A stretch of 64,000 nt of DNA from Branchiostoma floridae (lineage: Eukaryota; Chordata; Leptocardii; Amphioxiformes; Branchiostomatidae), in the NCBI RefSeq assembly GCF_000003815.2, contig NC_049993.1, forward strand, positions 3,096,370 to 3,160,369, written 5' to 3'. The notes below the pieces were generated by a model. The model was not told the origin of the DNA and searched no databases. It worked only from the letters and a program-made list of their open reading frames with translations. A program made the translations under genes and the position numbers. Position 1 is the first letter of the stretch. Each line of letters begins with the position of its first letter. Shown here one piece after another: positions 15,314-60,481 of the stretch.

Positions 15314-15710
15314 TTAATGTGTGTATATACCTAGCTACCACATGCAAATTAGAAATTCCACTGCCACAAGTCGAGGAGAGTTTCCACTGAATACAAATGG
15401 ATGTGAAATGTCAACATGCATTAGCTTACAAAAGGTATTTCTCAAAAGGAAACGAAAACCTTTCTTACTTCATTTTCATCTTAATTTGAACAGGAGCGTG
15501 GCGTACTAAACAACGCTCCTTGAATAGCTGAATTGTAGGATATCGTATTTCCTGCCTTTGTCGGAAACATCAAAAAGAGCGGTTGTTTGTCATGGGTGCC
15601 AAACAGCTATTCAAAGGCCGTTTGACTTTTTGCAAGGTCAAAGGGGGGTTTTGTGTACTATAATCAGAGAATAGGCATTTCCATAGCAGGTTTACTTGTG
15701 ACACTTGAAG

Positions 15711-18700
15711 ATGGATTCAGCTCACAGAGGAATACTCCGAAGATATCGGGAGAAAATTGTGGACGATCTTGACATAGATCTTGTAAAAGAGACTCTCATC
15801 GCAAAAGGAATCCTTGACAGTGAGCAATGGGAATGTATAGCAAAGGCAGGGGATGCAACAAGACATGGCAAAGCTTCTGCGCTTATGGACGAACTACCTC
15901 GACGCGGGCCTGACGCATTTTGGTATTTCTGTGAGGCACTTATGGTACGCCGGTATGGGTTCCTTGGTGAACAGCTAATAAAGGAAGGTGAGTTTCTCAT
16001 AAATATGTATAGTATAGTATAGTATAGTATAGTATAGTATAGTATAGTATAGTATAGTATAGATTAGACTACTTAATGACCTACACTAGCCGTCATCTAT
16101 GCGAAGGTACCCTGTTAGTTGCCTAGTTGTAAGGCTTACTGCGGCAGGAGACCTGTAAAGTAACCCTACACTCAACGCTGTTACCACAAATTGAAATCAA
16201 TATTTGGCGCTTTCGTGCAGATTTAGATTGTTTTTGTCTGAAAGCTTTGCCCCTGGCGAAGTAGTGAGCCCTGTGAGTTTTATGTGCATTTTTCATCATC
16301 GTCGCGGTAACTTTACATGTACTAGCACGCGCAAAGAAGTTTGTTCATGATACGTCGATGAAGGTTAGATATCCAGGTAATAAGATACGCCAAAAACAGT
16401 TACTCAAGCAACTGCGTCTGACTGTATAAAAAACAATACCCAGTTGCTTAAGTAAATGCTTTTCAGCGTTACAAGTTTGTTCATGATTTCTATCAGCGCT
16501 ATTTTGCCATGCTATGCATCCAATGAAACGTGGTTTAGTACATGCTGCCAAAGTTGTGTTGTTCATTACTCATTCTATCAGCAGCGAATCACTGTAGGTG
16601 AACAATGACACTTTGGCCCCATGCCCTGATCAGGTGTCCCCTGACCATGGAGAGCAGATCTTTCTGCCAAACATAACATTCTTATTGACAGGGGATGCTA
16701 TTGGATGACATGTGATTATATTTTTAGAACAGGCGAAAATCAATGCACGCGTGCATGTCATCTATATAATTAATTCAGTGTGGCCAACGGTTTGTTTGGT
16801 TGAACAGCACGACATACTTGGTGAAGTATTTACCTATGGGAGGATTAGTAGGTTTTCCTTTGTACTGCAGCAGAATCTTATGAGCTTGTATCTAATATTC
16901 ACTCTACAAGGCCAGACATGTACAACAAAGGAAGCCCAATTATTGTGGTAAAATTTGGCCTAAAGGTTTTAAAATTCGAACCGTGTTCGATTCGGTGGGT
17001 GTAATCAAACAGAACATCCGTTCTATCTGGGGTCACACGCGGTCATCCACAGTTTCGACTGTAAACACGCACTTATTTTCCCGGGTGTCGTGTGTCAGAA
17101 ATTAAATAAGAAACAAACATTTTCACAAATATAAACAATCATCTGGCCAGGATAGCTGGCGTTATTATTGGTGACCTTGAATATTACAACACTTGTTTAC
17201 GGCGGTATCAATTACCCCGTGTCCCTATTAGTGCGACTCGACATACGGCCAAACATGGTATTTAAGTCGCTTAGAAAACGCGTGCAAATCAGCTCTCAGG
17301 TTCATGTCTTAGGAATTCTTTTTATTAGGGAGTAAATTTTGAATTACGGGTCATTGAGTTATAAAAAAAAAGGATTTTCGACCTTATCTTGGCTGTAAAA
17401 ATGGTTTGAAGTAGAAGTTGAAAAATCCCCAAGACAGAAATTTTCATCTTACATTCATTACGTAACGTCCGTTAACCTTTATTCGTCACTTTTCGTGAGT
17501 GACACTATTGTGATCCCATTTTTTAAAAGACTAACCAGACTTTTCTTCCTGTTATATGTTGACACTATAGAGTACCTTTGTCCCTTTTGCTGAATATGTT
17601 TCACTGTCTCCCCCCGGTCTCACCGACGGAGATTTACTGGACTCAATTATACACGGCCGAGTCGCGCTGAAGACGGGCATGTTCTACGAGAGACTAGCCT
17701 TTATTCGTCACGATACAACAGTGTCGCTATCTCCCCTTAATTTTGATATTCAGAACAACGATAATTTCTTAATTTCTTCGTCAACCGACAGGCATTAAAC
17801 ACTAGTTCATCTGTGTACCAAATGTCGCTGTCAACACGCCGATGCACTTCCGGTAGCTGCAGTCAAAAAATTGTCCTGAAAACATCGCCCTGCCGCAGAT
17901 CTGTTCCTGTGTTCCATCGGACGGTCCTAACGTATTGTAAACCACTGTATCAACATTTTGGGGGCCTGCTACAGCTATCAAAATGCGAGAAACTATCGAT
18001 AACTTGGACTGCAGGCCACAAATTACGTACTGCAGGCTAGATCACGTGAACAGTAAAGTGATATCTCAGGTCAGCGGCCGGTACCAACAGTAGACAGCAC
18101 TACGGGGAAGGGGAGAACGACCCTCCATGTACCACTTTCCTGTTACAGATGATTGTTCCAGGAGTAAAAAGAATGGTATCTCGAATACTTAAAGTTCAAT
18201 TTTACATAAGTTAGTGGAAAATTTAATCATTTTGATGATACGAAATTGTCATAACGAGCTATAACGTTACCCATACTGAGACGGTTGGTATCGTCTTAGG
18301 GACATGTGTACACGTGCTGGGGCTTTACATTTTCGAAAAAGGGGACCGTAGGCCTGGGAGTTATTTCCATTAGGCCACGTTGATTTGATTATATGGATGA
18401 CATCCGCGCTCGCACCAATTTTCGGCCATTTCCAAACAAAAAAAAAAGGTTTCGACCACACAATAAATTGTGCAAAGCAGCTGTAAAATGAGCACAAATA
18501 CTCCGTAGATTGAAAAAAAAAGAGTATCAGAAAACAGATAACTAATGCCATATATAGAATGCCAAAATGAATCTAAAGTCAAAGAATAAGATGTGAAAGG
18601 ACGGAAAGAAAAAAAATCTATTGTTGGTTGGGGGAGGTACCAGTACAGAACATTCAGGTCCAGAGGATCATGGCATACCATACTATGTGTGTTTAGTCCT

Positions 18701-21700: not shown

Positions 21701-24700
21701 TTACATACATCGATGGATGTCAGACATCCAGATGATAATATATGTATAATTTATAATAAAGGAGAAGAAATTTTAGACAATCCTATAGTTCTTCAGGATA
21801 GGAACCTTATTCAGACGGGGCAGCGCAGGGGGTGGGGGTAGGGTCTGGACCAACTTTTGTCGCATGACGCGAGAACGGCTTACGCTAGAGCCACCAAAGA
21901 TATTGAGTTGTCCAAAAATTTAACTATAAACAATTTCTTAAAGTATTCATAAAATTCTAGTTTCGTGTTGCCATGGTAACCATTTGTTGACAGGCATTTT
22001 TGACGAAAATCGCTGATTTCGGTTCTAGCAATGTATTTTTCATGTTTATTTTTTATATCACTGCTACCTCTTATATAAATAAAATCATTTGTTATCTATA
22101 ATATCAAGTTATATCTTTCACCCATTTAAAAGAAAAACAATGCTACGAGGGGCGTGCAATAAGTAATGGTCCTGACCCACTTCCAGTTGTCTGATCTAAA
22201 TGACATTTTGTATGTGTAATAATTCATATCTCTATGGGTTATGTTGCAAAAGACAGCTCTGAACTAATTGTGGTTTCTGATTTACTGGTGTTTGAACTTA
22301 GTCAGGTGCGAAATGGACCAGGTGTGAAATGGAACCAGTTGAGTGTCGCGCAGTGATCCGGTTTTTGTATTTGAAAGGACGCACACCAAAGAAGACTTTT
22401 GATGAAATAAATGAAACTTATGGTGATGATGCCCCATCATATGACCTTGTAAAACGCTGGCATCCTGAATTCAAACGTGGCTGGAAGTCTGTGGAAACAG
22501 CTCCCAGACCTGGTCGTCCCTCTTGTGCCATTGATGAGGCATCAGTTGGAGGACCAACCTGGGGTGTCCTACAAAATCGGTGTCCAGAGCTGCATCAAAC
22601 GATGGGAGAAATGCATAACTCTGGGTGATTCCTATGAAGAGAAAGACTAATAACTGTGCCAAGTTTCATTAATCTCCTGCTATGGGAAATGGGTCAGGAC
22701 CATTACTAATTGCACGCCCCTCGTAGTATAGCACTGTCTAGTGCAAAGGAAGATCTGGACGGAAGGTGTAACTAGCATTCTGTAATTTACAGATCACTCT
22801 TACCTTTTCAGACCCGCATATTGGCCCTGTCATTGAGCGGGCAAATCAAAGACATCAAGCAGAAACACCAGGAGATGCTTCAAGAGAGAGGACCGTCTGT
22901 CATGAAAGCGCTGAAGAAAGTATGCCATGCCAAAAAGACCGGCGGCAGAAGGGAATCAGAGCAGAGGGTAACATCATTAAAACAAATGAAAGAAGCTCTG
23001 AAAAGTCACCAACACCGTAAACGCCACCAAGATCAGAAAGAATCGTTATTCGATGATTCTGACCAGTTGGCTCTGAATGACATTCTTGGCACTGTGAAGA
23101 CATTAAAACACATCAGAAAAGAGTTACAAAATGATGGAACGGTTCCCGGATTTGTGGCCGAAATGAATTCCATGTTGGTAGATGAAGCCGGTTTCTCCAC
23201 TCTCTATGAAATGACAGTAGACAGAGGGTCAGATTACTTGAAAGATTTGCGCAGGCAAGGGGTTGGTGACTCAGATATAATAAAGTACGGTTTTGTTTTG
23301 GTTCTCATCCCTCATCTCTGTCACCTTTCTGAACAAGCTGTCAAAGTGATGAGGCAGCGTCCCTTGCCTAAAATGGAAAACCCTCGTGCAAAAGGTAGGT
23401 ATAGCAAACACATGCACTACTCCATACATCTATACATTGATTAATAACATTTTCTATCTTATCTCTATCTGTATAACCGGCCAACATGGCCAATCTTCGG
23501 CTCAGCACAGGATATTCTCTTTCATCGTTACACATTACCGTCTTCAATAACATCTTTTTACTCTGAGTTAGTATTTTACAGGCTTCATTATCATATAGCC
23601 AGACTAAACGATGCCAACCAATCAGAAGTCCCCATTTCATATCAATTATGACGCAGTTAAGTAATTTAAGTGCCACAACCGGTATTTAATGACTTTCTAG
23701 CGTCCCGTCGTTGGTGTATATGAATCTGACCTTCTGACTGGTCAATGCCCAGTGCATATCTCCTTCTGATTGGCGGCGGTCCTTTGTGTTTCTTTCTCTA
23801 ATTGGTTCTGGTTGTTCATTTGCACCAAAACTACTGTTATAAATACCTAACTGCAATTCTGAGACATTGCCCAAATGTATCAAAGTATAACTTGATAGTG
23901 CCATGAAGGCAGTAATTTGTATTTCTTATTTGCATATTCCAGTTCGGATAGGCTACATGGATATGGTAATGACGTTATGAACCCACCTGTCTTCGGTGTT
24001 TATGGTGTCATAACGCCTTGGGGCGGGGCACCTTTAATTAGTGCATGTCAAACTGACGGAATATATAAATGAAGGCAGTAAACATAAACATGATTCTGTC
24101 TCCAGTCATGTTTAACTTTCATTTTTATGTATCTATATATTTAGATTGATTGCTGTGCTTTTTAAAGATCAATCATACTTGTACAATACAGACGAGGTCA
24201 AGCCACCTAGTGATGAGGATGAAGACCATGATCATGACGAGCAGGAGGAAGACCCACTAGCTGAAAGGTTTTCTGACTTAATGGATTGTAGTGTTGAAAT
24301 CTCTATACGAGTTGAAATCTCACTGGCAAGGGCAAAGTAGAAGACGAAAAAAACGACATGAGCATAATAAAAGTCTTAAAGACAGGGTATTAAACCAGGA
24401 ATTAAAGCAAACGTTCTTTTCTTAAAGCAGCCAACCGGTTTATTCTATACGCTAGGCAAAGTAAAACAATAACATACGTTATAAAGTTTTAATCTCTTGA
24501 AAACTTAATTTTTACAATGAATGCGCACGTGGTTGCAAATAATTCTCATTTCACGGACCTTTGAATTTAGAGAACTATGTCAAATAGCCTCAAATTTTGG
24601 GCTAGAACGCTGACATTTAAATTTCTATCAATCATTTGGTAAGAGTCTAATGTCAAAATTCTAAACTGATACAAAGCTCTATAGAGGAACTCACGTTTTT

Positions 24701-30700: not shown

Positions 30701-33700
30701 TCTGCCGCTTGTGTGACGTGACCCGAGCGTTGGTCCAAAAGATTAGTAAGGATCGTATGTTTCCCGTAAGGATCGTATGTTTCTAGTAGTGGATCGTATG
30801 TTTTCTGTAAGGATTGATGTTTCCTAGTAGTGGATCGTATGATTTCCGTAAGGATCGTATGTTTCTTAGTAGTGGATCGTATGTTTTCCGTAAGGATCGT
30901 ATGTTTTCCGTAAGGATCGTATGATTACTTAGGCACCCCTGACCAAGTTAAGTGAAATGTAAATATGCTCAGATCACTATATTAATTATATGTTTAAGAT
31001 GGCGAATGGATAAAAAGAATGACTTCGCAGAGTCTGCAGATATTTTCAGTGTTCACTAACCCTCTTAATATATAGTATCATGTATGTGCTGATCATGATC
31101 AGTGCATTGATGTAGAACAAGGCACTGTAAAGCACATTTAGCCAGAAGCATGCTGTTATAGAATCTTAGCTCATGTACAATCACAATACTGCATGCTGAT
31201 TTCCCTGTTCTTGTTTAGTAAAGAGGGCACATGGGGTGCAGTTTAACCCTCAAACCACCGTATGGGGTCAAAACTGACAAATTTCCTCCCAAGAGTTTGT
31301 TTGTATATATGTCTTATAACTTCTCATATGTTTTTATCAAGATTGGCTCATTGTTAATTGAGTTATCCTAGAAAGTTTATGTATGGTCCAGTGGGGTCAA
31401 AACTGACCCCAGCATTTTTAAACAAACTTCTGAGGCCCATAACTAAACTACTCATCGTATGATCACGAAATTTGTAGAGAATGATGTACCTGTGAAACGA
31501 AATTTTTGGTAGAACTTTCTTGTCATTATCATGTTGTTTGACGACGCCGTGACGTCATTTAGCTTAAATTGGCCGCCATCTTTGACTTTGACTCATTACG
31601 TCATCAAACTAGCATAAATTTTGAATATTGAATCATGAAATTTACGCTGAATTCGATAAGATTCCATGAACAAGTGTGGTTTGCCAAGAGAATCTTAAAA
31701 TGTCGACGTTTATGCCAAAATTAGAAAATTTCGTAATAGATATGTATGTCAGAATTCCGTTGCCATTGCAACTTAAAAATGATGATTTTTTTATTCACTT
31801 AAATTGTTTGCTTTTAAAATTTTCTGAAAAGGGACCAAGTTTGGCGGCCCTAGCATAAGCCATTCAGGTACTATGCGATATTGCAATTGGTGCAGAAATA
31901 AAAAAAAACTATACTACCAGGTCTGAATAGCGTTAGTGCAAAAAGTGGTGCTAATGATCTTTTGCATAAATTATGATAACGGAGTAGAATTATTTTCACC
32001 TAATCATGTCAAACTGGCCCACATAGATTAATGAAACTATACCTATAAGCAAATCACAAAAAAGTGTCACAAAAAAACAGTATTTGTACAAAACGTTATG
32101 GGGTCAGGTTTGACCCCATACGGTAATCTACGTCACAAAAAGGGTACGGTGGTTTGAGGGTTGATACTTTAAACTACTAATATTTTCTAATGCTTAGTGA
32201 ACTTATTCTTTTATTTATCCTGCAGAACAACAACAGCTATCTGCGGCTATTGACTTAGTAAAAAACGAGTTGGAATTCCGTTATTTTGAGAAATTAGCCC
32301 TGGAGTTAGGATTCAATCACGATGAGATTATACAAATCCGAAGCACAACTCCAGATAAATCTGATATTAAGCAACAAAAGTCAGAGCTTCTCCGGAGGTG
32401 GAGCAGACGAAGGGGCTGCACAGCAAAAAGCCTAGCACTTGCCTGTAGAAACATTGGTCTTCCTACACTGGCAGACAACATTATTGGGATCCTTGGTGCC
32501 TCAAGTGGAGGTAAAATACATTTTGATTACTTTGAATTAAAGTTCACTTGTTATATGATGCAAGATTAGAACATAGTATTGCACAGACATCCTAGACCGC
32601 GAACCCTGCACATTCGAACGAGGAGTTAGAGATGCTATATTAGAGAGAATATACAATCCCACCCTCATCAGGAAATGGGGGGGGGGGGGCTAACAATGGA
32701 AGTTCCCGGGCCTGGTACTAGGGATTTAGCCCGCCGCGCGACAAAATGTTAGCTCCTGTAAGACAAACTACCGGAGCTGATTGACTTATTTGCATCAACA
32801 TCGTATTTGTCTTCAGCTCCATCGAATATCATTTCATAGTGTGGATATAAAATCGTTTCTACCGGATCTCTCCAGTGTCATTGGATAAAAAAATATAGCA
32901 TGTCCAAAATCATATGCAGTTGCTTATTATAAGTAACTGCCTTATAGGGCATCTTATTACCCTAATGTCTAACCTTCATCTAAATACCATTTCATNNNNN
33001 NNNNNNNNNNNNNNNNNNNNNNNNNNNNNNNNNNNNNNNNNNNNNNNNNNNNNNNNNNNNNNNNNNNNNNNNNNNNNNNNNNNNNNNNNNNNNNNNNNNN
33101 NNNNNNNNNNNNNNNNNNNNNNNNNNNNNNNNNNNNNNNNNNNNNNNNNTGTTTTTGTATATATGTACATCGCTTAAGAAAAAGGTTAGAAGATATATAT
33201 ATCCAGACATTTTCTCATAGACTGTCTACAAATAATGGTAAGTTAAGATTTTTCAAGAAACTAAAGAAGGGATACTCAATGGAAACTTACTTAACGTTAC
33301 TAGATAAATTCGAGGTCAGATCGGCAATGTGCAAGCTTAGAATTAGCGCCCACCCCCTTGAAATTGAGAGAGGGCGGTACACAAAGTTACCTGTGGGCGA
33401 AAGAACCTGTAACCATTGTATGGCAAAACCGGTGGAAGACGAAATACATCTTATTTCTAACTGCATCTCTAACGATCAGGAAAGAATTTGAGTTATTTGA
33501 AGAGGCATGCAAATTCCACAAAAATTTCCAAACGCTTACCGACGAAAACAAAACTACAACGCTTTTAACGTCACATAACCCACGCATCATAGAAAAAGTG
33601 GGACACTTCGTCTTCCACTGCTTCCAGAAAAGAAGTCAAACCCTAAATACGTAGATTATAGCTCTCAGAAGTCCATATCATTGCTAGAATAGTCACTTGT

Positions 33701-37822: not shown

Positions 37823-40800
37823 TAAAGAGAGAGAGAGAGAGTAATAGATCGATATAAAGTGTTTTTTCTTGTCAACATAAATGGCACAATACAGTAAACA
37901 TATAAATTGGACAATTTCATGAAGAGAGAAAAGAGAAAAAGCATACAATGCATATAAAATTCCAGTCCGTCCTCTTGTATACTTATCAAAATAAATCATG
38001 TTCTAACACATATCTAACAAACGCAGACACAAGTATCAATTTGAATATTAGAAATACATACTTTGCCTGACCCAACGGTTCACATGGAAGTCGTATGTAG
38101 GTCCGCTGTTGTCCGGGTTGAGTTGGACAGAGACGGACTCACAGTACCAGTCGTCATCAGGGTGGCAGCCATCCCGAAACAGCTCTATCTTCTCAATTGG
38201 GGCAGCCACTTTTACATCCTTCAGTTTGTACCTGGATAAGGTAAATGTGGTAGCCAATTAGATCAAGGAGGTTCAGCAGCAGTTGCAACTACAAAACCTT
38301 TCTTTTTCTTTACATAATCCCCCCTGCAATTCCAGAGTAGGCTGCAAGGAGGCCCGTACAACATATATTCCTTACATCAAAAATATATTTGCCACGAAAA
38401 TATCAAGACCATAGCATGGGGGGGGGGGGGCAAAGAGTGAGAGGGACCGAGGGGGAGGGGAGAGACAGAAAGAGGGAAGAGAAAGAGAGAGAGAGAGAGG
38501 CCTCTGCCGTCAATTCTAATATTTGTTTACCTATTTTTTCGAAATTTACAGAAGGTAGAGATCTACTTACTGTCCCTCCTGTCCCTTTTCAAAGTCGTTT
38601 TTCCACCACACATCCAGCTTCAGCTCACGGGACTGGTGGCCTTTATCGTCATAGAGGCGGATGTAAACGTTCGAATTTGTTCCAGAGCCACGGTACTTCC
38701 CAGTCTTCGTTTTAACGAAAACGTCAATTCCAGCAGCATCACTGTCGTCCGGGTTTTTATTCATTCCCTGTGCACAAATACAAGGTAAGACGGTCAAATA
38801 AGATCATACACCAGTACTAGTATTAACCTATAAATGAAATGGTCAACACCTACGAAGAAGACCGCAAAAATATGGATCTAGAATATAGCTGGAGCTAGTG
38901 TCAACCAGAAGTCATTTTGTTTAAAACTGGAGTTAAAATCAACCAGGCACAAGGCGACAAATAGACGCCGTAATATAATCATCAAAGCATCGATTTTACA
39001 TGAGATGTGCTGGAAGAGTCCATTCTTGCACGGGGGGGGGGAGTATTTTTAAAATTAATTCTTGGTGACTTTGGTGATTATGTTAGAGTCCTATTTTAGC
39101 GGAAGTATTTTTGGATTGCTTTAGTTATTTTAATAAAAGTCAATTTGCATAAAACTTTTAATAATATTTTAGAGAGAGGTATATATGTAACCGTAGCATA
39201 AGCTACTAGCCAAAGAATGTATCAAAATTGACAACTTACGTCAATGATGTCATCAAAGTAGGATGGAAAAACCGCTTTTAAGTCATTGGGGTGTTGCAAC
39301 CAGAATGAATTGATGTTGACTTCGTTGTCAGGCTGCCCCAAACGAGCTGCCTTCGTCCCGGTCCACACTGGCGGCTCCTCGAGCTCCCATCCAAAGAAGG
39401 TGTTGAGAACGGCGATGCTGCCTTTGATGACCGAAAGCCCGACGTCTTTACCCGGGCACATGTGGTTGTTGGCCGCGGGTGTGTCGATGAGCCGGCCGTG
39501 AAATGTGACGTGGTGTTCCCTGCGAGCTTTACCCTCAGGGCCGAGAAACCTACGCCACATGAAGTTGTCTGGCTTGTTAAAGACAGCAGGGTCCCTCAGT
39601 GCCCAGTAGGAACTTGCATACACACGTTCGCCTTCTTTTATCTTGAAATAAGGACAAGAGAACATGTAATAGCTTGACGATAAATTATTAAAAAAAAAAA
39701 TAGCTTTCGGCCAAAAGGGTATTTTCACCCTTAGGCTAATCAGTCATGCGTGTGTGTCTGTGCGTCCGTGCGTGTGCACGCTTTCGTCTTGCCTGTGTGT
39801 GTGTGTTTGCGTTCGTACGTCCGTGTTTCTGTGTGTGTTTGTGTGTGTTTGAATGCGATCGTCTCTGTGTTTGTGTCCGTTTTGTGTTTGTGAAGGTATG
39901 TATGCTTGTGTGTGTGTTTGTGTGTGTGTGAGAGAGCGTTCGTTCATACGTTTGTAGGCGTGTGTGTATGTGTATACGTATTTGTAATCTTTGGTGTGTT
40001 CATACTTATTTGCCTTATACCTGTGAGTACAACGTTTGTCACTCACCTCAACCTCCTGTGGTCCACTCTCTGTTGAGTACTTGACAGTCGTTGGACGTGT
40101 AGCAATGGTGCTCCAGAAGTCCGGAGCTGGACAAGCACGCAGCACTTCCAACACAAAGCTTTCAATTTTCGGCATCTCCGCCAGAGCCTCTCGGGTCAGG
40201 CCTCCGTGTTTCTTCAGGGCGGCAAGCGCCTCCTTCCGTAGCTCCTCCCGGTCTTCTGCGCTGATGGTGTCCAAGCGGGCGAAAGATGGCACCAGGTTTA
40301 CTGCCATGCCGGCAACACCGTTGAACATTATTGTAAAGAGCAGCTGCCCCGTTGTCTCTGCCTCCCCGAATCCATGTGATTTGCCGAGATCAATCAGCTG
40401 GTGGTACCTTTGAATATAAAAAAAAAAAAAAAACTATTGAAGAAGATTTGAATGTACGTGTCTTCATTTGTATCCCTATAAGTCCGAAAAAAGACTTGAA
40501 AAAGGCGCAACATTTTCGAGAAAGCGCAGGATGTTTCCCTCTTGATTTTTCTCAAGCTAGTTTCACACAACACTTTACTATTAGGTTCGCCTTTTGAGGC
40601 GTCACCAAAAAAATAGGGACATTGACATAACTCATGTCACTGGATTGGTTTATTATATTACTCCGATAATAAACATGCTTTGTTAAAATTTTACCCATAC
40701 AATTAAAAAAGCATTATTGGTCTATGCATTTTTGTGCTATACATGTATTACGAGCATTATAAGGAAAGTTAGAACTATATTACCAAATATTTGAACGTAC

Positions 40801-53365: not shown

Positions 53366-56300
53366 TCAGTTTGTGCTGAAGAAGACCTTTTTGCGTAAAG
53401 TGCTGTGGTATGAGGAAATCCACCCAAAAGTGTCGTCATTGATATCATTCATTTTGTCGCATACCATGGCCATGATGGCGGACAGATCGTGAGTTGGGCC
53501 GAAATCTTTCAGCAGTTTTGCCAAATGGAACACATAAGGAGCCCCGTCCTGGCCTCGCTTAGAAATATGGCCCGGGACTGTAGACAGACCCAGGAAGAAA
53601 TCGGCTTCGTTGCAGATGAAATTCAAAGGGACATCGTCACCAGGTGTTGCATCAAGGTCACCTTCAGTACTTTCTTTTCCTTGAATTTTCTCTCCCTGAC
53701 AAGCCTGAATGAAGAACAGCTTTGGTTTGCCTTTGAGAGAGGGACATTTGTTAGCATGGAATGGTTTCATGATCTCACAGATGTCTATGCCTACGTCATC
53801 GGATGAGAAGACCTTTCCTGTGGTGCCATGCGACATGATGCAGCAGGCGAAGCAGTCGTAGTTGGAGTGGTCGGCATTTCCCTGGTCCTTCATAGTAGCT
53901 ACCATCTTGGAGTGGTCAAGGTCGATGAAGGTCATGACAGTGAAGCCAAGGCTTTCGAAGGCTTCTTGAAGGCGACCTGTATGAAATATATTCATTTTGA
54001 AATGGAAGTTTTTTTTTTCTTTGTATAATTTATTATTATGTCCTTTATCGTATATTTATATTTCAGCCATACCATAGGTATGGTGAAATATATTGTATTC
54101 GTAATGTTTCTTCTTTCTTTCTCCTGTCAAATCTTCAGAACACGGTATCTCCGTTGTTCCTCAACCGAATGACTTGAAATTTGGCACAAGGGTAGAGTGG
54201 GCCAATACCCTCGGGCGTTTTTTTCATTTTTTCCATATCTGTCTCTTAAATGATTTTATTAAGGTTTTTTGGTCATCTTAAGACCAAAACTGTATATTTG
54301 GGCCCCCTGTACCCTGGTATTATAACCGAATGAGCTGAAATTTGGCACAGATGTGCCTTGATAAGTCCCCCATATAGATTCAATATCAGTTTTGGTGTAC
54401 AGTACAACAAAATGTTTATTTTTGCGATTTTTTGACCAATTTTTGACCAAAAAAGGACACTTTTGGCCCCTGTACCCTGGTATTACAACCAAATGAGCTG
54501 AAATTTGACAGAGATGTGCCTTGATAATGCCCCCATATAAATTTAAGAACACTTTTGGTGTACAGTACAACAAAATGCTTATTTTTGCGATTTTTTGACC
54601 AATTTTTGACCAAAAAAGGACACTTTTGGCTCCTGTACCTTGGTATTGCAACCGAATGAGCTGAAATTTGACACATATGTGCCTTGATAATCCCTTCATA
54701 TAAATTCAATAACACTTTTGGTGTACAGTGCAACAAAATGCTTATTTTTGCGATTTTTGGCCAATTTTTGACCCAAAAAGGACACTTTTGGCTCCTGTAC
54801 CCTGGTATTACAATTAAATGACCTGAAATTTGGTATAGATAGGCATTAGATACTTGGTAACAAGATTCAAGTAAAATGTTTGACATAAACAACTTTAAAA
54901 TGATTAATTTTGGCACTTTTCTGAGGGGAAATTTGTTTTCTTTTGGCCTCCTGACGTGACCTTCCGTGACCCCGCACAGAGCCACACCTGTGCGCGTCAG
55001 CCGGAGAGTTAATTGAATCAAAGACCTAGCCAATCAGCGAAGAGGAGGCCAAAGGCTAATTAATATTCATAAGCGGGGCCTCATGATCCCGTATATAGCA
55101 GTGTTCCCGCCAGGGGGAGCAAAGCCCGCCTAAGGCTCTCGCATTTTAGACTATTCAGAAGGCTTTATATTGTATCAGTTCTTAGGGGCATATCTATGAT
55201 AATCGCAGCAGTCACTTAACTTCTCTTCAGGAGTTTAGCGTAACACTGTTTCAGGTCAAACCGTCAAAGGCAACTAAAAACAAACTTTAACGTTACTGAG
55301 TTCAACAGTACTTATAACTTGTTATCCGAAGTTGAAACGCTAGCGATGGTATTTTCGCTGCGCTGTTAGCTCCGTGCGACTGTTGTTGACGGTCTTATAA
55401 CGGTATATTTTGCACCCCTGTACCCTGGTATGAGTAACATTTGGTATAGATAGGCATAATATAGTTGGTAAAATGATCCAAGTAAAATTTTTGGCATAAA
55501 GTACTGTAAAAGGCTTAATTACAGCACTTTTTTTAGGGGAAATTGGTTTTCTTTCGTTCTCCATGCCGTGACCTTTCGGACGTTCACCCCACAGAGCCGA
55601 CATCTGCACCTGCGTCTAGCCGGCAGGAAGAGTTAATTCAATTAATGGTTCAGCCAATCAGCGAAGAGGAAAGCGAAGGCTAATTAATATTCATAAGCGG
55701 GACCACACAATACGTTAACTTGAAGACTCAGGCCGTCAGACTTCTCGCCAGGATTTTTTCAAAGCGTCGGATAGGGGTCCGGGGGCCGCCGAATGTCCCT
55801 GGCGGGGTCCAGGGGCAGGGCCACTGTGGGGGGGGACCCAGGTGGGCGAAGCCCCCCCGGAAGCTCTTGCATTTTAGGCTATTGAGAAGGCTTCTTTTAT
55901 CAGTTTTTTTAGGGCCATATCTACGATAATCGTAGCAGTCATTTACTTCTCTTCAGCAGTTTGACTTTAAAATATTTCGGGTCAAAGCTTCAAAGACAAC
56001 TAAAACCTCATAAACAACAAACTTTACTTAGCTCAACAGTATACAAAAATATTGTACGGGTTGCCATCCTTAGTTGAAGCGCTTATTTATAGCGCTAGTA
56101 TCTTCGCTGCGCCGTTAGCCGCCGTGCGACTTTTGTTGACGGTCTGATATCCCTACGTCGCCGCCTCGCTGATATTCCCACGGACATGTTTCAAAAAAAA
56201 TACCCAGCAAAAAACGCTGTTCTGCGTCAAATTCTATTCTATAAAATTCAGTGTTACAGTCTAAATATTTTGTAGAAGCACCGCTGTAGGAAAGAAGGTC

Positions 56301-59300
56301 CAAGCAATGTAAAACATCACGTAGCATGAAGTTCGCTGTCAACTGGCACACAGCACATGACTGTTTGAAACTCTAAGTCTAATCAACAGCCGTGTTTGAT
56401 TGATAGCCGGCGGTCCTATGATGAAGTCGGCGAAAGGTGCGTTAGTTAGAAAATCTGCGTTTAGTTTTGATACGTAATTATAAGTTAGACAGTGGCGAGA
56501 ATGATTATTTTCTCATCAATATTTCTCTTCAGAATTATTTGAACTTAATTGTACATCTAAACAATTGGCTTACCTGTGCAATGTTTATATGATTAATGAT
56601 CAGTGTACTGAAATCATGTGTAACGTATGGCTCCTAGTCAATAGATCAGCATTTTCTCTATAGTGACCACCTGTCTATAGTGGCCACATTTCCTAGTGCT
56701 GTTGTTGTTTGGCATAAACTTTGAACATTTAAATTGTAAGTAACTTTAAACTGCCAGAGTTTCAGCCCAATAAAACACTCTCAGCGCCAGGGTATGAACA
56801 GACTGACCAGACAGACGAAAATAAATCCTCGAACAAGGTTCAATCGTATCTTCCGGGTCTGGCAGGAAGTTGTTAAACTAAAATAAGAATAGGCTCGATG
56901 GTTGATTGCATACAAAGTAAAACAGTTTAACAGTTTTACAGCTTGAAGAAAACAAACGCTCCTACAGTACCTGCACCTGCTTGATAATTATTAAATCGTA
57001 TGCCCTACTTGAATAAAAAAAGTTCATTGCAATAATAAATGTACCCACATCACAAGGAGCTTATACTTTTTTAAACTTACACCTAGTTATCGTACTGAAA
57101 ATTGTTAATGACATTACATGAAGTCATTCAACAATTTTCAGTCATGATGAAAATTTTCTGAATGGAAGGTGTGATTATTGTCATTTTCTGAAAAATAGAA
57201 GCAAGCTCTGTTTTTACCTGGAGTCAATTCACAATACCAGTCCACTTTGGGGGATAATGTACTGTTAAGAGGATGTTCCATTTTTGCGCAGGGGTGATTT
57301 GGAACAGTCCAATGTTGCGTGGGAAGGGGTATGGNNNNNNNNNNNNNNNNNNNNNNNNNNNNNNNNNNNNNNNNNNNNNNNNNNNNNNNNNNNNNNNNNN
57401 NNNNNNNNNNNNNNNNNNNNNNNNNNNNNNNNNNNNNNNNNNNNNNNNNNNNNNNNNNNNNNNNNNNNNNNNNNNNNNNNNNNNNNNNNNNNNNNNNNNN
57501 NNNNNNNNNNNNNNNNNNNNNNNNNNNNNNNNNNNNNNNNNNNNNNNNNNNNNNNNNNNNNNNNNNNNNNNNNNNNNNNNNNNNNNNNNNNNNNNNNNNN
57601 NNNNNNNNNNNNNNNNNNNNNNNNNNNNNNNNNNNNNNNNNNNNNNNNNNNNNNNNNNNNNNNNNNNNNNNNNNNNNNNNNNNNNNNNNNNNNNNNNNNN
57701 NNNNNNNNNNNNNNNNNNNNNNNNNNNNNNNNNNNNNNNNNNNNNNNNNNNNNNNNNNNNNNNNNNNNNNNNNNNNNNNNNNNNNNNNNNNNNNNNNNNN
57801 NNNNNNNNNNNTGATTTGGACAGTCCATGTTGCGTGGGAAGGGGTATGGCTGAAATATGCTGTATTTGCTCTTAAGCAAATGTCGGCCTTTCTAGTTACG
57901 TATACCTCCTTAAGTAAAATTATGTACAACTCCTTGTAAGCGAAAGACGATGCCATACTTTGCTGAATTAACATACTGTTAGAATAAGTATGTATATCGT
58001 CAACTAGATTTTTTATACTAAAATTCAAAAATCAAATTAGTTCTATAAAATTGCTATATATTTAGATTTACTTGTAGTTCAACTTCATTGTATCTACAAG
58101 TTGCAATGCATTGTACCTATTACAATTGTCGCGCAACAATTCTTATATACAACCAGCCAGTCATTCAAGAATATATACCTCTATCTATTTTCTGATTTTA
58201 AACCTTACCTGTATCTCCTTCAGCCCCATCTCGTGTGGCCATATCTTCAAAGTGGATGCTGTTAATTATGACAGCTGTCCCACGTGGTTTATGACTCATC
58301 CTGTATGTATTGTTGGTCTCGGTGGTCAGGGAGACGATCTGGTCTTTCAATCGTGCAACCTCCATCTTGTCAGATCCTGCCTGGTTCTTTAGATGAATGT
58401 TTTCTTCTTTTAGTCGTGCGACCTCCTTTTTTTCAGATACTACCTTTTTCTTTAGATCAATATTGTCTTTTTCTAACATTTCATTCAAGTCGATAGCGAT
58501 TCTTTCAGCATCGGTTTTACGTTGGAGTGTCGCCATCATGCGTTTGTTATAAAGCTGAAATTGTTCTTTGCTTACTGGTATTTCATTCGATTCGTTGTTG
58601 TCATCGATCGCGAGGTCATTGCCATGTTGTTCTTTTCTTAAGTCAATGACATTGGTTGCAGAGATTATGTGGTGTATTTCTTGACCTCGTTTCATTTTAT
58701 ATGAGACTAATACTCTCATTAAAATGAAGAGCACTACTGAAAAAGCCATAACAAAAAGCGCCAGAATGATAGAGAAAACGTGGGATTCCGATGTTTGTTT
58801 AGCCGTGTAATGTTGCCCGACGGTGTTTTTAGAGGTTGAGTCTGTAAAATTGATAAGCAAGGCATATTTACGCATAGCATTTTGATTTCGTAATTGCTTG
58901 TAAAATATTATAATGCTAAGAAATTTAAGGTGCAGCATCTTGGGTTCAAATGATATTATCAATAAGAAGGCATTTACTTCCAGGGAGTATAATGTAAAGA
59001 AATACAATCAGCTGAAGGCTCCTTTTGCTCCCCGTAACCAATTACATTGAGTTTACAGCATTTTGCCAAAAATTACAGCTTCCCAAACAAGACATGGTTT
59101 TATTGGCAAAAAAGTATGGGAAATTGAGCAATTTAAAGTTATACGCAGTGTTGTATCATTTAAAATCTGTTATGACATGAGATTCTATCCAGGAAATTGG
59201 AAGTAATGCATGCATCAATTCCACGGGATCAAGGTCTGGGGCAAAATAACTTGAAACAATTGTAACATTACAAAAGAAAAACATTGCAGGCAAGGGTAAG

Positions 59301-60481
59301 TTGGGGGCATTTCCATAGAGTAGGGTTGGATACAGAACCAATAAATATTACTTGAATCGGTCTTTACCAATAAGATATTACTTGATTAAAGAAATACCAT
59401 TCACATACTTTTTATTGTTGGAGAACAGGGGGCGCACACGTTGTCTCTTTTGTGATGGCCCCTGAAGACAAAGCATTCCCCTCTGGCGGCACAATCTGTG
59501 TGGGTCCTGCACTCAGCCGTGCTGGAGATCTCGTCTGAAAAGGTCCCAGACCTACAAAGCATGCACCTGGTGTCCGTCTGATGAGTACCTGTGTAGTGTG
59601 ATTAGTGTAAATATGACGAGAGTGAGAGGGCACAGAGAAATAGCACATTGAGCATTAGTAAAGCTATTATACCGAGGTTGCCTATGCAAAGTACAAAATG
59701 TTGATATAAACACTGATGTTAAATGTTTTCAATGTTCTACTCACCGACCTAATATTGTAAAAAAAAAAGAAATGTTTCCTAAACCAATTTCAATCTTTCA
59801 AACAATATTTTCTACACATGGCAGGCACATATTTCGCAGTATTTCAAGTTAGAGGGGCAAGTTTTCACTCAAGTTGGCCAATACAATAATACATCCTTTC
59901 AATCAGGACAAGTCTCATTTTAGTGCAATGACCCGGAGTGACCCCCCAAAAAATTAATATGCCCGCCACATCTGAAATGGGCTCCATTGAGGATAATTTG
60001 ATGATGGTAACACAATACAATTAAACACCGTTAAACACCGAATATAAGTTGTACATAGAATAAATAAACATTTTGATCTACGTATAATTTGAAGTTCACC
60101 TTTTTCTATGACACCCTGGCCTCTCGGGCATTTTGTGTGATGTAAGCAAATGGGCGACATTGTTGGTTTGAAGTACCCGTTGTCACATTCACACTGCCGA
60201 TTTTGTACGGCTGTACACAATAGGGTTTCATGCTCATGCCCATTGTTCATTACGTTACACTGGTGGCAGCGGTGACACTCCGACAAGTGGTTGTACTGTT
60301 CCGCGTAGTGTCCCCTAGGACAGGGTAGGCATACTGTGGATGACTGTACCGTACAGGGATTGCTCATATACTCCCCGGGCTTGCACCAGTCACAGTACAC
60401 TTGTTCTCCTGAAGCGGGGTCCTTATAGCGCCACTTTGGCAGTGAGTTTAACGTATTGGCTCCGGATGCAAACAAAATAAT
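53366..60481 (-). CDS. TNFR-like receptor fused to a caspase catalytic domain (single chain; 5' exon not found)
   Basis: Exons: 60481-60100, 59588-59409, 58841-58209, 53976-53366. GT-AG borders and phase 1 agree at each junction (G/GT, A/AC, G/GT), giving 601 visible residues. Numbering from the first visible residue: 1-10 look like the end of a signal peptide (IILFASGANT); 25-128 are cysteine-rich TNFR repeats (YCDWCKPGEYMSNPC, CLPCPRGHYAEQY, CHRCHQC); 129-183 are a further repeat (CMLCRSGTFS, CAARGECFVF); 209-234 are a transmembrane helix; about 275-365 are charged coiled coil; 371-601 are the caspase. Caspase marks: MSHKPRGTAVIINSIHF at the start, catalytic His448 in SHG, Cys491 in QACQG, NEADFFLGLSTVPG, and the end LRKKVFFSTN, closest in style to caspase-8/10. 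Asp-rich DLDATPGDD lies at the expected large/small subunit linker. No DD or DED is present. Exon 1 needs an upstream exon carrying the ATG; I could not identify it. Probable role: plasma-membrane death or immune receptor that carries its own protease. Confidence 0.85.
54296..54810. repeat. Tandem repeat of about 163 bases, three and a fraction copies
   Basis: Each unit begins GTACCCTGGTATTACAACC and contains 'gagctgaaatttgacac', 'gtgccttgataa', 'gtgtacagtacaacaaaatg' and 'gaccaatttttgacc'. It lies in the large intron of the TNFR-caspase gene, upstream of the caspase exon. Open frames across it are due to the repeat. Confidence 0.85.
54810..56140. repeat. Diverged direct duplication of about 600 bases
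   Basis: 54810-55390 and 55420-56140 share the order 'ggtatagataggcat', 'gaccttccgtgacc', 'gccaatcagcgaagagga', 'ggctaattaatattcataag', 'ctcttgcattttaggctatt' and 'cgctgcgctgttagc'. It lies in the large intron of the TNFR-caspase gene. The GC-rich 'gggggccgccgaatgtccctggcg' piece is unique to the second copy. Confidence 0.7.
57335..57811. other. Assembly gap (477 N) inside a repeat
   Basis: The same sequence, TTGCGTGGGAAGGGGTATGG, stands directly left of the gap (57315-57334) and 18 bases inside the right edge (57830-57849). The gap therefore probably hides tandem units. It lies in the large intron of the TNFR-caspase gene. Confidence 1.

Follow-up and report, generated by a model that had tools for sequence, protein, structure and literature searches.

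A single-chain TNF receptor-caspase gene of Branchiostoma floridae and its coiled-coil caspase and death-domain receptor relatives

Receptors of the TNF receptor (TNFR) superfamily that contain a death domain, such as Fas, DR4/5 and TNFR1, signal via FADD and caspase-8/10. For amphioxus, the accessible text of Zhang et al. 2008 (PMC2575513) reports a predicted transmembrane TNFR-caspase (JGI model Brafl1_82667) and TNFR-caspase cDNAs from three genomic regions, together with LRR-caspase hybrids, and proposes that inflammatory signals could reach cell death by a shortcut; GenBank accessions EU049583-EU049596 and EU279424-EU279425 are given there. A DED-bearing caspase-8 that interacts with FADD is described for a second amphioxus in the part of Xu et al. 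2011 (PMC3196919) that is accessible, and the accessible text of PMC5752451 contains a B. belcheri transcript annotated as TNFRSF6B, which goes up on poly(I:C). The accessible parts of PMC3196919, PMC4979521, PMC8195603, PMC5787515, PMC5752451, PMC13303787 and PMC7674686 do not mention a TNFR-caspase, and no functional study of one dating from after 2008 was found in the literature searched, which excludes most subscription papers.

The window analysed here, a stretch of 64,000 nucleotides (C15:3096370-3160369) from a searched assembly of 513,431,437 bases in 431 contigs, contains a gene that answers to this description: a TNFR ectodomain, a membrane span and a caspase in one chain. Like Brafl1_82667, as presented in the accessible text of PMC2575513, it has its TNFR region outside, its caspase inside and a QACXG motif in the latter. 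Three genomic regions are reported there and three genes are found here, the window gene being likened to Brafl1_82667 by description alone. The initial annotation knew of no described single-chain TNFR-caspase; this claim to novelty fails, as the architecture is already in print for amphioxus (PMC2575513, accessible text). The single-chain architecture proposed in the same interpretation is well supported, by the open frame and by two paralogues.

Table 1. Coordinates of the window gene (positions in the window) and of related loci (positions in the assembly).
Feature	Position	Strand	Content
Exon 1	60100..60481	minus	Putative signal-peptide end; bulk of the TNFR cysteine-rich repeats
Exon 2	59409..59588	minus	Remaining TNFR repeats; phase 1 at either end
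Exon 3	58209..58841	minus	Stalk, membrane helix, juxtamembrane region, coiled-coil segment; also the caspase's first strand (RGTAVIINSIHFEDMATRDGAEGDT)
Intron 3	53977..58208	minus	Splits the caspase domain; 4.2 kb, with an N gap inside
Exon 4	53366..53976	minus	Remainder of the caspase (SHG, QACQG) and stop codon
Paralogue B	C15 ~3.232-3.237 Mb		
Paralogue C	C15 ~15.653-15.656 Mb		
Coiled-coil caspases	C14:1.64-1.66 Mb, C13:3.49 Mb, C6:2.21 Mb		

The four exons (Table 1) measure 382, 180, 633 and 611 nucleotides and join into 601 open codons, followed by a stop codon. Exon 1 is bordered by the acceptor ctctag/ATT (phase 0) and the donor AAAG/GTGAAC (phase 1), and all exon junctions are of phase 1 (1/1/1), as the initial annotation had it; the same structure is present in two paralogues. 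A Pfam search with the joined chain reveals TNFR_c6 (E 2.3e-15, three stretches) and Peptidase_C14 (E 2.9e-43, profile positions 1-232 of 233), confirming that TNFR repeats and caspase are contained in one chain. The junction between exons 1 and 2 is crossed by a single phmmer stretch of DcR3 (E 7e-32, query residues 13-180), in which the alignment gaps are small and located away from the junction. That between exons 3 and 4 is crossed by a single phmmer stretch of caspase-8 (E 2.7e-32), so the proposed division of the caspase domain between these exons also stands. The junction of exons 2 and 3 is based on splice signals, phase and its recurrence in the two paralogues.

The tandem cysteine-rich repeats, recognised by TNFR_c6 and by the match to DcR3, place the ectodomain in the TNF receptor superfamily; its best relatives of solved structure are DcR3, OPG and DR6. 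Hydrophobicity (Kyte-Doolittle, averaged over 19 residues) rises above 1.6 in a single segment, at residue 209, where it peaks at 2.99. This one membrane helix would fit a type I topology; the beginning of a signal peptide was not found in the upstream scans described below. The 601-residue chain contains no death domain (Pfam, E 0.1) and is thus not a death receptor in the domain sense. A derivation of its stalk and membrane helix from the C14 death-domain receptor described below was considered and is unconvincing, the alignment score being reached by 22/500 shuffles for the window copy, 124/500 for paralogue B and 327/500 for paralogue C.

The caspase domain is complete, with p20 and p10 parts, the catalytic His and Cys and the S1 Arg. 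Neither a DED nor a CARD is present in the 601-residue chain (Pfam, E 0.1; the start exon lies outside this chain), which therefore lacks the domains of DED/CARD initiators. An Asp-Ala step in the linker (DLD/A) is common to all three copies. When the second caspase exon was modelled by itself from its single sequence, the predicted structure was uninformative (mean pLDDT 35.3). The best match among solved structures is caspase-8, with which the window caspase shares QACQG and 75 of 206 aligned residues; where caspase-8 has DEDs, the window chain has a coiled coil and a membrane helix instead. Caspase-3 and -7 nearly match the caspase-8 score (110 versus 115 bits) and, in a tree of 17 rows and 208 of 288 columns, human caspase-8 groups with another caspase of the amphioxus genome, with long branches flagged; orthology to caspase-8 is therefore not established. 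The three TNFR-caspases group together at 88/99, below the threshold of 95 used for a star, inside a mostly unresolved clade of 11 rows (99/97). The genome search gave at least 94 Peptidase_C14 matches, a lower bound since they were counted exon by exon. Among the best 16 of these 94, the catalytic Cys is present in 15 and the His and the S1 Arg of loop 3 in all 16; within this set, only paralogue B has Ser in place of the Cys. The caspase at C168:40039-40632 contains HACQG, with His replacing the Gln before the catalytic AC.

In the genome search the ectodomain gave 28 matches, and three loci were found that combine it with a caspase, all on C15: the window gene and paralogues B and C. The four-exon structure, the phases and the open frame are common to the three. 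Pairwise dN/dS values (NG86; window-B, window-C and B-C, respectively) are 0.238, 0.169 and 0.223 for the caspase, 0.269, 0.383 and 0.453 for the ectodomain, 0.509, 0.757 and 0.341 for the coiled coil and 0.42, 0.454 and 0.509 for the region from stalk to juxtamembrane, for which dS is around 1.9 in two of the three comparisons. In the three pairwise comparisons, each module is thus below 1, with the caspase lowest.

Paralogue B retains the ectodomain, the membrane helix, the coiled coil and the open frame, but in its second caspase exon (within C15:3230565-3234146) the catalytic Cys has become Ser, giving QASQG (AGT, compared with TGT in the window copy). This differs from the accessible discussion of PMC2575513, where QACXG is given for all such proteins. 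Judged from its active site, paralogue B may be a catalytically dead partner. Counts of lineage-specific caspase codons, synonymous and non-synonymous, are 14 and 19 for B, 18 and 14 for the window copy and 18 and 10 for C, which suggests that constraint on B has somewhat relaxed and argues against full conservation of its role, although its pairwise caspase dN/dS values (0.238 and 0.223) are still low. Exon 1 of paralogue B (within C15:3234400-3240400) is also 72 bases longer than that of the window copy, containing three additional eight-residue repeats resembling GHEYETLY.

When the exon 3 protein was searched against the genome, the matches beyond the C15 copies were to caspases on C14, C13 and C6, which align only from the coiled coil onward. 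These coiled-coil caspases (Table 1) have a homologous coiled coil and caspase and the same intron splitting the caspase domain; four of them were compared in the second caspase exon, where 145-161 of 198-203 residues are identical to the window copy. The ectodomain exons 1 and 2 have no match in the eight loci of C14:1634000-1662491, where 5519 of the 7801 bases of one locus and 206 bases of another are N, nor did the genome search find any on C13 or C6. The initial annotation had also proposed the coiled coil itself. By itself, the heptad pattern of the window copy is weak, its score being reached by 90 of 500 shuffles (2 of 500 each for B and C), but the segment is homologous to the coiled coils of these caspases: against two of them it scores 87 and 97, values that none of 500 heptad-keeping shuffles attains. 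Compared with the C13 coiled coil, the window copy, B and C score 87, 140 and 107, the highest of 500 heptad-keeping shuffles being 76, 79 and 59, respectively.

Outside the three genes, the ectodomain search finds a cluster at C14:13.36-13.38 Mb with the same two-exon layout. Among the closest relatives is the receptor there at 13.37 Mb (C14:13368001-13377999): identity to the window gene is 58% over query residues 15-129, and frames for a membrane helix and then for a death domain follow the ectodomain exons on the same strand. Where this receptor ends in a death domain (PF00531, E 4.4e-16, from two downstream exons joined by eye), the window chain has none. By sequence comparison, coiled coil and caspase of the window gene belong to the amphioxus coiled-coil caspase family, and their union with the receptor part lies within a single exon. 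Since the relatives of exon 3 match from the coiled coil onward and the ectodomain has a relative with a death domain, it is likely that a receptor of the kind found on C14 became fused, directly on the inner side of the membrane, to a coiled-coil caspase.

At the 5' end, the codon directly before exon 1 is an in-frame TAG, and an acceptor-like tract precedes it; the start exon must therefore lie further upstream, and the gene as delimited here is 5'-incomplete. An acceptor-like tract is located at the matching place in B, C and the C14 death-domain receptor. Start exons were scanned for in 11.5 kb upstream of the window copy, 9.2 kb of B, 11.1 kb of C and 4.0 kb of the C14 receptor, yielding 0, 1, 0 and 1 candidates, respectively, where the highest of ten shuffles each gave 2, 0, 2 and 1; none was thus found in the 11.5 kb upstream of the window copy. 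A looser scan of 3.5, 3.2 and 5.1 kb upstream of the window copy, B and C produced 0, 2 and 1 candidates. In C and the C14 receptor, translation could also begin, without an intron, at an ATG in frame a short way upstream; neither the window copy nor B permits such a start. The upstream regions of B and C match one another in blastn, whereas that of the window copy has no blastn match to either (E 0.01) beyond about 20 bases before exon 1; tblastx gave a few short matches far upstream. With its start exon missing and an upstream region unlike that of B and C, the window copy may have undergone a rearrangement at its 5' end or lost its promoter.

This bears on the reading of the window copy as a decaying or 5'-truncated paralogue, with paralogue C as the working gene of the family. 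Besides its divergent 5' DNA and the lack of a start exon in 11.5 kb, the exon 1 donor of the window copy does not have the GTAAG/GTAGG form of its paralogues. Signal-peptide exons are short and hard to detect, however, and C likewise yielded none in the scan; moreover, the frame is open over four exons and, compared with either paralogue, no module reaches a dN/dS of 1 (range 0.17 to 0.76). This reading appears unlikely. That two adjacent genes, one for a TNFR and one for a caspase, have been wrongly merged in reading the genome is far less probable still and is largely refuted. The idea gains from an assembly gap of 477 N bases (57335-57811) within intron 3. Exon 3 alone, however, encodes the membrane helix, the coiled coil and the beginning of the caspase, so that membrane part and protease are not separate genes. 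The order of parts is the same in both paralogues, in which intron 3 has the same position and contains no N; tblastn (E 1e-3) finds each of the four exons once in the window; and the accessible text of PMC2575513 reports cDNAs for the architecture. With the exon structure and open frame repeated in two paralogues, and with matches crossing the exon 1/2 and 3/4 junctions, we reject an annotation chimera.

We favour, at a probability of about 0.7, the interpretation of the window gene as a type I receptor of the TNFR superfamily in which a coiled-coil caspase replaces the death domain and would be fired by ligand clustering without FADD. Direct firing on clustering, as proposed in the initial annotation, is plausible and is the best mechanism we can put forward. 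Points against this interpretation are the lack of a start exon for the window copy, its unmatched upstream DNA, its weak heptad pattern and a coiled-coil dN/dS of up to 0.757 against C. A TNF-type ligand would cluster the ectodomains, and this clustering, together with the coiled coil, would draw the caspase domains together. The caspase would then fire through induced proximity, with cleavage of the linker at the Asp-Ala step, and cell death or inflammatory proteolysis would begin without a FADD or DED step. The QASQG paralogue, as a dead partner, could damp or scaffold the active copies. Caspases also have roles other than in cell death, and a membrane-tethered caspase might, for example, cleave membrane or inflammatory substrates locally. 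That decoy receptors, DcR3 and OPG, stand beside DR6 among the ectodomain's best solved relatives lends this some weight, but nothing here separates such a role from death signalling; we consider it possible, if rather doubtful, next to a directly fired receptor.

Other features of the window were surveyed with Pfam in 78 open reading frames of at least 85 residues and with few N, outside 53-61 kb and excluding one open-ended frame at the right edge; 40 of the 78 were rescanned singly to place the matches. On the plus strand, a CARD frame is located at 15702-16019 (E 1.2e-8), with the caspase-9 CARD as best solved match (E 6e-7), a death-domain frame at 32201-32566 (E 1.2e-8), without a solved-structure match at 0.001, and a Mos1-type transposase HTH domain at 22302-22625 (E 1.3e-10). 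A Cytochrome P450 fragment is found on the minus strand (39225-39743, E 1.2e-6).

What is added here to the published architecture is the kinship with coiled-coil caspases, the ectodomain relative with a death domain and the QASQG paralogue; none of the three was encountered in the accessible literature searched, which excludes most subscription papers. Tentatively, the amphioxus set could comprise two protease receptors with intact active sites (the window gene and the 15.65 Mb copy) and the dead 3.23 Mb paralogue B as a membrane-bound, c-FLIP-like brake or scaffold mixing with active chains, all originating from a receptor of a kind known here in a death-domain form as well, whose outer half was joined within one exon to a coiled-coil caspase. 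Vertebrates divide the step from clustering to caspase among receptor, FADD and caspase-8. With an initiator-like caspase built into the receptor itself, a single chain would allow a test of whether clustering alone fires a caspase, for which the QASQG paralogue and the C14 death-domain receptor would form a natural comparison set.
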